Shown piece by piece: positions 43,601-46,600 of a DNA stretch of 64,000 nucleotides (position 1 is its first letter; every line of letters starts with the position of its first letter). Below the pieces are notes generated by a model. That model had not been told where the DNA came from. It was given only the letters and a program-made list of their open reading frames with translations, and did not search any database. The stretch is taken from contig NC_054882.1 in assembly GCF_018320785.1 (NCBI RefSeq), forward strand, positions 1-64,000, given 5' to 3'. The position numbers were made by a program, and so were the translations under genes. The stretch comes from Cheilinus undulatus (taxonomy: Eukaryota; Chordata; Actinopteri; Labriformes; Labridae).

Positions 43601-46600
43601 TTGTTTTTGGGGCTAGTTGGTTTTGTTTTTGGGGCTAAGTGGCTCTGTTTTTGGGGCTAGTTGGTTTTGTTTTTGGGGCTAGTTGGCTTTGTTTTTGGGG
43701 CTAGTTGGCTTTGTTTTTGGGGCTAGTTGGCTTTGTTTTTGGGGCTAGTTGGCTTTGTTTTTGGGGCTAGTTGGCTTTGTTTTTGGGGCTAGTTGGCTTT
43801 GTTTTTGGAGTCTAGTTGGCTTTGTTTTTGGGGCTAGTTGGTTTTGTTTTTGGGGCTAGTTGGCTTTGTTTTTGGAGTCTAGTTGGCTTTGTTTTTGGGG
43901 CTAGTTGGTTTTGTTTTTGGGGCTAGTTGGCTTTGTTTTTGGAGTCTAGTTGGCTTTGTTTTTGGGGCTAGTTGGCTTTGTTTTTGGGGCTAGTTGGCTT
44001 TGTTTTTGGGGCTAGTTGGTTTTGTTTTTGGGGCTAGTTGGCTTTGTTTTTGGAGTCTAGTTGGCTTTGTTTTTGGGGCTAGTTGGTTTTGTTTTTGGGG
44101 CTAGGTGGCTTTATTTTTGGGGCTAGGTGGCTTTGTTTTTGGGGTCTAGTTGGTTTTGTTTTTGGGGCTAGTTGGTTTTGTTTTTGGGGCTAGTTGGCTT
44201 TGTTTTTGGGGCTAGTTGGCTTTGTTTTTGGGGCTAGTTGGCTTTGTTTTTGGGGCTAGTTGGTTTTGTTTTTGGGGCTAGTTGGCTTTGTTTTTGGGGC
44301 TAGTTGGTTTTGTTTTTGGGGCTAGTTGGCTTTGTTTTTGGGGCTAGTTGGCTTTGTTTTTGGGGCTAGTTGGCTTTGTTTTTGGGGCTAGTTGGCCTTC
44401 TTGTTGGGGGCTAGTTGGGGCAGCAGTGTCTGATTTTGACCAGAGTCATAGTTTGTCATTTGGCCCTCACGCCCATCCTTCCTTTTTCGCTGATATTTCC
44501 TCATTTTCAGTCGGACTTGTTTGTTTTTTAGGACCACATGGTGACGATGCACGACGTGCTGGACGCCCAGTGGCAGCTGGATCACAACAAAGACGAGTCG
44601 TACCTGCGGAGGGTCATCTTCCCTCTGGAGAAGCTGCTGGTGTCGCACAAACGTCTGGTGATGAAGGACAGCGCTGTGAGTCCCGCCCATCAGTGCCGTT
44701 GGCGTCTGATCGTTTGGTCTGCTAATTCTGAGCTAACCGTGAGTCCGACTCTCTGCAGGTCAACGCCATCTGCTACGGGGCGAAGATCATGCTGCCAGGT
44801 GTCCTCAGGTATGAAGACGGCATCGAGATGAACCAGGACATCGTGGTCATAACTACGAAGGGCGAGGCCATCTGTACAGGTGAGTCACGCCTGTCTGTAC
44901 GGCGTCTTTGACCTAAAGGAACTAAAAAACGCCTGGTTTGTTGTTTTTGAGGATCTGTGAGGTTTTGTCCATCGTTTCCTGTAAACGCGGCCTCGGCGTT
45001 CCCAGGTGTGTTCAGGTGAAGCCACATGATGACCTGATGAGTCAGCAGCTCTCGGGCCGTGATGACCTCCCATCTATCACCCTTGTCTGATGGCTTCTGT
45101 CTGAATGTCTGACTGTGAAACTGATCATTGATCAATCACCTATATTAATCGCCGCCTTGTCACGTCTCTCCTGCAGCGGTCGCTCTGATGACGACGGCGG
45201 TCATCTCCACCTGTGACCATGGCGTGGTGGCGAAGATCAAGAGGGTGATCATGGAGAGGGACACGTATCCCCGGAAGTGGGGTCTGGGTCCGAAGGTGAG
45301 GTTATTGATGGGGGTCGTAGCTCGTGCTGTTCACGCCGATGGACGAATAAAGTTTGATTTGTCTTTTTGTCTGATCAGGCGAGTCAGAAGAAGATGATGA
45401 TCCAGAAAGGCCTCCTCGACAAACACGGGAAACCCAACGGCAGCACGCCAGCCCAGTGGAAGAGCGATTATGTGGACTACAGGTACGTCTCTCTGAAGGG
45501 GCGGGGCTTCATGGTTTTGCAGACAGTTATCCCTCACCGCGCTGGCGTGCTCTCTGAGGGAGTCAGTCTGCTACAGAAACTCTCAGCTGTGAGCTCCTTC
45601 AGTCCACCGTCTGTGGATCTGAACGCTCGCGGCGAGGACAGAAGGCCTACGACAGCCACTTTAACCAAAACATCTAAAACCACTGACATTAACGCCGCTT
45701 TGTTTTTATTTCTGACAGCGCCACGGTGAAAGAGGAGACGGCAGAGACTCCAGCCAAGGTAAACTCACCGTTCCTGACTAGAATAAATCCAGATCTCTGA
45801 TTAGTCAGACCAGGAATCTCAGGTAGTGAGAATCTGGACTAGAGATGTGCTCAGGTGTCAGGATGGAAGGTCTCTCCTAGACTGGCCTGCATGCTAACAG
45901 GCGACTCTGTTTCACTAATATGGGTCATTAATGTGCTGAAACCCACGCCGTTGGCTTTGAGAGGAAATGATTATAATCCAACACTTTTTAACTATATGAG
46001 CTCTTATTACATTATGAGTTGCTACAGGGGTTAGGGGGTCTGAACCAGAGGGGTTAGGGGGTCTGAACCAGAGGGGGTTGGGGGTCTGATGGGTGTGGGG
46101 TCTGAACCAGAGGGGGTTGGGGGTCTGATGGGTGTGGGGTCTGAACCAGAGGGGGTTGGGGGTCTGAATCAGAGGGGGTTGGGGGTCTGAATCAGGCAGG
46201 TACAGGAGCTGCAGGTGTGACATCTCACCTGCTGTGAAGCCACATGATGATCTGATGAGTCAGCAGCTCTCGGGCCGTGGTGACCTCCTATCTATCACCC
46301 TTGTCTGATGGCTTCTCTCTGCCTACTATTACTAATGACGCTGTGAATGTCGACCAGCTCCCTGACCTTTGACCTTTTATACCGCAGAGAAAGAGGGAGG
46401 CGGCAGACAGCGAGGGAGAGGCGACGGCACCCAGCACGCCATCTGCAGACGAGATAAAGAAAGAGAAGAAGAAGAAAAAGAAGGAAAAGAAGATGAAGCT
46501 GGAGGAGGCGGAGGCTGATGGCGCAGGGGCGGAGCCAGAGGAGGCAGCAGGGGAGGAGCCTGAGACAGAGGTGAGCTTAATTAAAACTAGGATGGTTATT

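Follow-up and report, generated by a model that had tools for sequence, protein, structure and literature searches.

Host gene and the two intronic units

The window, i.e. the whole 64-kb stretch of Cheilinus undulatus DNA that was analysed, contains dkc1, the gene for dyskerin. Its exons were placed by their splice sites; the 13 introns between exons 2 and 15 are all of the GT-AG type, and the joined frame has a single stop, which is terminal. The intron numbers 10 and 13 used below count one unplaced exon 1. Close to dkc1, on the minus strand at 52981-53721, an F-box (PF12937) is encoded in an open frame that may belong to an F-box protein gene.

Introns 10 and 13 of dkc1 each carry one copy of a unit with the features of a box C/D snoRNA. 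The coordinates of the two copies and of their boxes are given in Table 1, along with the other small RNA matches in dkc1 and those in the rpl3 gene of the same genome.

Table 1. Positions of dkc1, of the two U83 units with their sequence elements, and of other small RNA matches
Feature	Host or copy	Position	Strand	Basis
dkc1 (dyskerin), coding exons 2-15; exon 1 not placed		37760..47256	+	spliced frame; human DKC1 E 2.5e-250
Probable SNORD17 (RF00567)	dkc1 intron 3	38062..38258	+	44 bits, below cut-off 45; E 7.5e-8
SNORD53/SNORD92 (RF00325)	dkc1 intron 4	39361..39446	+	49 bits, cut-off 46
Probable SNORA36 (RF00340)	dkc1 intron 8	41165..41296	+	34.8 bits, below cut-off 43; E 0.0047
U83 unit (Rfam RF00137 'SNORD83'), very probable box C/D snoRNA gene, copy 1	dkc1 intron 10	45018..45097	+	cmscan 46.8 bits, cut-off 35; 7-bp terminal stem
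Probable SNORA56 (RF00417)	dkc1 intron 12	45517..45657	+	37.5 bits, below cut-off 80; E 0.0002
U83 unit (RF00137), very probable box C/D snoRNA gene, copy 2	dkc1 intron 13	46236..46315	+	cmscan 46.6 bits, cut-off 35; 7-bp terminal stem
C box ATGATGA	copy 1; copy 2	45026..45032; 46244-46250	+	sequence
C' box, TGATGAC in copy 1 and TGGTGAC in copy 2	copy 1; copy 2	45060..45066; 46278-46284	+	sequence
D-adjacent guide ATCTATCACCCTTGT	copy 1; copy 2	45072..45086; 46290-46304	+	AUCUAUCACCCuUG = RF00137 consensus
D box CTGA	copy 1; copy 2	45087..45090; 46305-46308	+	sequence
snoU83B (RF00593)	rpl3 of own genome	L015:3669-3761		81.5 bits
SNORA54	rpl3 of own genome	L015:5940-6073		74.6 bits

An earlier note, made from the letters of this DNA, had pointed to two 80-nt units with three base differences within 45018..46315. 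It described C, C' and D boxes with a closing stem AAGCCA/TGGCTT, a location in dkc1 introns 10 and 13 at 70-80 nt before the next exon, and unrelated sequence in the remainder of the two introns. The exon map and the match to human DKC1 bear out the host introns, and the other points agree with what we measured. Both units have a C box of the form RUGAUGA, a CUGA D box and a terminal stem, whose 7 bp (GAAGCCA/TGGCTTC) are complete in each copy. The common stretch of the two copies is 88 nt long with 95% identity and extends past the stem by 2 nt (left side) and 6 nt (right side); three of the differences fall within the 80-nt unit and one just outside. The 60-nt flanks are identical at only 30% and 28% of positions.

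From the end of the unit to the 3' splice site there are 79 nt in copy 1 and 72 nt in copy 2. Both units are thus in the usual place of vertebrate box C/D RNAs, on the sense strand of a host intron and near its 3' splice site, for which a distance of ~70 nt has been reported as optimal (PMC1821038). By eye, the units show no clear D' box with space for a second guide, and no poly-A tail was seen at the duplicated stretch. Immediately upstream of copy 2, intron 13 contains G-rich tandem repeats of 23/39 nt (46026-46195).

Chance repetition as the origin of the pair is ruled out by the Rfam E-values of the two copies, 3.2e-6 and 3.6e-6 (64-kb window, both strands, 4227 families). A strict pattern, composed of the C box, the D box and an exact 6-bp stem, was found at two sites on the plus strand of the window and at none on the minus strand; when the plus strand was shuffled 30 times by mononucleotides, no shuffle contained it. 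Since this pattern was drawn up after the units had been seen, the Rfam E-value is the fairer figure.

Assignment to family RF00137

When the window was scanned at curated cut-offs against the 4227 Rfam families, three matches were obtained: RF00137 twice, for the two units, and RF00325 (SNORD53/SNORD92) once. The sequence upstream of the D box, ATCTATCACCCTTG (AUCUAUCACCCUUG), is identical to the RF00137 consensus, and the base that follows it is T where the consensus has A. Taken over its full length, the RF00137 guide AUCUAUCACCCUUGA agrees with each of the two copies at 14 of its 15 positions, the exception being this last base. The upstream half of both units is a poor match to the consensus. 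The covariance search thus supports the proposal of the earlier note that the units are box C/D guide genes, and the RNA that it had left without a name is now identified as U83.

The U83 RNA was reportedly described in 2000, and the human gene presumably now goes under the symbol SNORD117. In human, mouse and pig, U83 is located in intron 5 of BAT1 (PMC1654159). A table for the addax MHC gives three RF00137 matches within ~5 kb, with 95.3, 36.7 and 70.7 bits (PMC7053375); since BAT1 is an MHC gene, these matches agree with RF00137 being the U83 of BAT1. Two of the addax copies score higher than the dkc1 units (95.3 and 70.7 bits), and the third scores lower (36.7; PMC7053375). These two sources (PMC1654159, PMC7053375) indicate that RF00137 is U83 as first described, from BAT1. 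SNORD84 and SNORD117 share one list with MHC genes (PMC9935838), and SNORD83, SNORD84 and SNORD117 are all listed among the snoRNAs without known target (PMC3349704). The suggestion of the earlier note that the guide may be an orphan is therefore supported, U83 being an orphan guide.

Other snoRNAs in dkc1 and in dyskerin genes of other animals

Three further candidates in dkc1, for SNORD17, SNORA36 and SNORA56, were found at permissive thresholds; their scores are under the cut-offs, and so each is called probable only. The permissive scan produced 10 rows, six of them in dkc1 (two U83, SNORD53/92 and the three probable snoRNAs), while the four others, with E from 0.4 to 4.5, are regarded as chance. 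SNORD53/92 and the three probable snoRNAs had been overlooked in the earlier note. The SNORA36 and SNORA56 candidates each have an H-type box and an ACA 3 nt from the end, and human SNORA36A and SNORA56 are located in DKC1 introns that match introns 8 and 12 here (PMC12683209). For SNORD53/92 and SNORD17, the only genome match found is the one in dkc1 (59 of 213,911 and 27 of 48,231 candidates scored, respectively). From the ends of SNORD17 and SNORD53/92 to the 3' splice site there are 846 and 444 nt; these distances are beyond the usual one, which counts against efficient processing of the two RNAs. The bulk of intron 8, starting soon after the SNORA36 candidate, is made of a 22-nt unit, GGGGCTAGTTGGCTTTGTTTTT, repeated in tandem ~137 times (41344-44418).

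In the comparison with chicken, we take HBI-43 to be SNORD17. In chicken DKC1, HBI-43 occupies introns 4 and 8, and two orphans, GGoCD5 and GGoCD6, occupy introns 5 and 9; ACA36 is in intron 6, and intron 10 has a U67/ACA56-type RNA. The study in question amplified each of its 20 orphan RNAs by RT-PCR (PMC2653536). The likeness to the fish gene is that of a vertebrate dyskerin gene with four box C/D RNAs, half of them orphans, together with relatives of ACA36 and ACA56. The genes differ in that SNORD53/92 belongs to dkc1 in this fish, while the listed chicken hosts of U53 are WDR43 and NOL5A (PMC2653536). The chicken intron numbers follow another scheme, and the two genes are compared by the RNAs that they carry; GGoCD5 and GGoCD6 are set beside fish U83 by description only.

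In the Drosophila dyskerin gene, mfl, the box C/D RNA DmSnR60 occurs in four copies, accompanied by one H/ACA RNA and by a further small RNA in duplicate (PMC1821038). As in dkc1, the box C/D RNAs are duplicated and located one per intron, ~70 nt from the 3' splice site; the snoRNA itself is a different one, however, and the introns belong to variable 3' UTRs (PMC1821038). With box C/D RNAs already published for chicken DKC1 and Drosophila mfl, the occurrence of such RNAs in a dyskerin gene is not new. The earlier note knew of no box C/D RNA described in DKC1. This statement was limited to mammals, but the suggested novelty is not supported, given the four in chicken and the four copies in Drosophila.

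For zebrafish dkc1, an intronic snoRNA was detected by RT-PCR and by in situ hybridization together with fibrillarin, and a role in pseudouridylation was supposed (PMC6954239). The forward primer for this RNA matches the window at 21 of 24 positions at 38068, within the SNORD17 candidate; the next best are a match of 17 positions on the opposite strand of this place and one of 16 at another site. For the reverse primer, the best matches in the window reach 18 of 26, and none of them is at the SNORD17 candidate. This counts against the identity with SNORD17, although the primer falls in a part that is poorly conserved in the candidate. The RNA is left unnamed and U83 goes unmentioned in the accessible text of PMC6954239, and the supposed pseudouridylation role would fit an H/ACA rather than a C/D RNA. 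Because of this role and of the reverse primer lacking a good match, the identity of the zebrafish snoRNA with SNORD17 is likely but not proven.

No report of U83 in a fish dkc1 was found in the literature searched, supplements being outside its reach; fish genomes annotated automatically with Rfam may well list it already. The U83 pair of dkc1 adds a member to a known family, in a kind of host known before and with a host gene unlike that of mammals.

Genome copies, change of host and predicted function

In the genome of C. undulatus (1.17 Gb, 46 contigs), the search for RF00137 found the two dkc1 copies and no other; with 60 of 170,535 candidates scored, this number is a lower bound. The exact 15-mer of the guide is present at four places in the genome, the two dkc1 copies, C11:33692630 and C14:41029748. 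The last two places have no match at the Rfam cut-offs, and about two occurrences of the 15-mer are expected by chance in 1.17 Gb (by arithmetic); they were rejected as further U83 sites. In two ddx39/BAT1-like genes of the same genome (L023-L025), no snoRNA was matched with E up to 1 and the best guide match was 11/15, their only Rfam matches being to mir-297 (E 0.19) and to the sRNA family TeloSII_ncR30 (E 0.75).

The host of U83 in C. undulatus differs from the mammalian one, and the RNA is present there as an intragenic pair. Since U83 is in BAT1 (DDX39B) in mammals and in dkc1 here, the host was switched in one lineage or the other. Mammalian U83 and the dkc1 units are alike in family model, guide, boxes, stem, intronic site and orphan status; they differ in the host gene, in the presence of two near-identical copies and in the T next to the D box, for which the consensus has A. 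U83 is thus a case of a guide that is retained while the host gene varies by lineage.

Judging by the sequences, one U83 copy is derived from the other within dkc1, either recently or with gene conversion. The derivation was proposed in the earlier note and is supported here. In the middle stretch outside the guide the copies are near-identical, and both depart there from the RF00137 consensus; the copying is therefore recent or has been maintained by gene conversion. With respect to the three differences between the copies, copy 1 agrees with the consensus at one (in the C' box) and copy 2 at the other two, so that the fit to the consensus favours neither direction of copying.

The two units are very probably genes for the orphan box C/D snoRNA U83, which would be spliced out of the dkc1 introns and would serve as a methylation guide. 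The other snoRNA families found in dkc1, two of them at human intron positions, count in favour of this explanation. Beside the observed family, boxes, stem, guide, introns, distance and copy number, we infer expression, particle assembly, methylation and a target as follows. Splicing of the dkc1 pre-mRNA would release introns 10 and 13, each with one U83 unit on the same strand. The box C/D proteins 15.5K, NOP56, NOP58 and fibrillarin (PMC7072173) would bind to the U83 boxes, which lie ~70-80 nt from the 3' splice site, and exonucleases would shorten the freed introns as far as the terminal stem. Led by the guide next to the D box, fibrillarin would afterwards add a 2'-O-methyl group to the marked G of ACAA(G)GGUGAUAGAU in a target RNA, with 2'-O-methyl G within ACAA(G)GGUGAUAG as the predicted product. 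The methylated position opposite a D-adjacent guide is set by the fifth-base rule.

Complete rDNA was not found in the assembly. There are 14 places in the genome that resemble an 18S start, and none of the seven examined is accompanied by an 18S end, a 5.8S or a 28S landmark; the query with the 28S 5' end returned one 42-base piece.

The substitution in the C' box of copy 2 (TGGTGAC) counts against the explanation given above, as do the scores below those of two addax copies and the poor consensus match of the upstream half. The C' substitution would fit a situation in which only one copy, probably that of intron 10, yields stable RNA and the other is a young duplicate becoming a pseudogene, which we consider quite unlikely. 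Against it, C' boxes are commonly degenerate, and copy 2 retains its C box, D box, guide and full 7-bp stem, has practically the same score as copy 1 (46.6 vs 46.8 bits) and lies 72 nt from the 3' splice site. Still, just one third of annotated snoRNAs are predicted to be expressed per vertebrate genome (PMC10234308), which speaks for a single active copy.

Even less probable, and compatible with the units being U83 genes, is a role mainly in cis, with the units acting as intronic structures that adjust dkc1 splicing. Intronic snoRNAs have been reported to regulate host splicing via pairing with the adjacent intron (PMC10324135), and dkc1 is rich in intronic snoRNAs. However, the guide is the consensus of a family that mammals host in another gene, which is in keeping with action in trans.

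The Rfam family name 'SNORD83' hints at a relocation to dkc1 of SNORD83A/B, which in human sit in RPL3 (PMC3412847); such an identity has practically no probability left and is refuted by sequence comparison. SNORD83B corresponds to RF00593, with UGCUGCCUUCCUUC upstream of the D box, whereas the dkc1 units have a different guide there, and rpl3 of this genome holds its own copy of RF00593. The 5' fragment of mouse SNORD83B, GTTCTGTGATGAGGCTC, printed lacking its first 3 nt in a table of PMC9149858, likewise fits RF00593 and not RF00137. In rpl3 (L015) and in the second L3 gene (L016) we obtained no RF00137 match up to E 1, the best guide match being 11/15. Rfam 'SNORD83' (RF00137) thus denotes an RNA different from SNORD83A/B, and the name is a trap. 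As the rpl3 scan puts SNORD83B in another family, the effects of SNORD83B on mRNAs and the sponge RPP0 copies are no evidence on U83.

Returning to the reading of both units as U83 guide genes, the fact that the guide is unchanged through the change of host implies a real target. Comparing RNAs that contain ACAAGGGUGAUAG across vertebrates of both host arrangements could help to find it. One may go further and suppose that snoRNAs of both classes have collected in the fish dyskerin gene, which took in an orphan guide kept by mammals in the gene of the mRNA-export helicase BAT1, doubled it, and ties a conserved 2'-O-methylation to the output of the pseudouridylation enzyme. As a whole this broader picture is unlikely; if it is true, the U83 pair may methylate an RNA important enough for the guide to outlast its host.

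Elsewhere in the window, transposase-like frames with HTH_Tnp_Tc3_2 and DDE_3, perhaps Tc1/mariner remains, are present at 58197-58868 (plus strand) and 14435-14839 (minus strand). A match to the immunoglobulin V-set at 17381-17797 (plus strand) perhaps belongs to an Ig-domain receptor gene. The frames 15849-16295 (without a Pfam match) and 28858-29316, mutually similar by eye, are perhaps Ig-domain receptor genes as well. The long open frames at 273-2945, 6739-11874 and 30367-34419 read as tandem repeats and are likely minisatellites, not genes.
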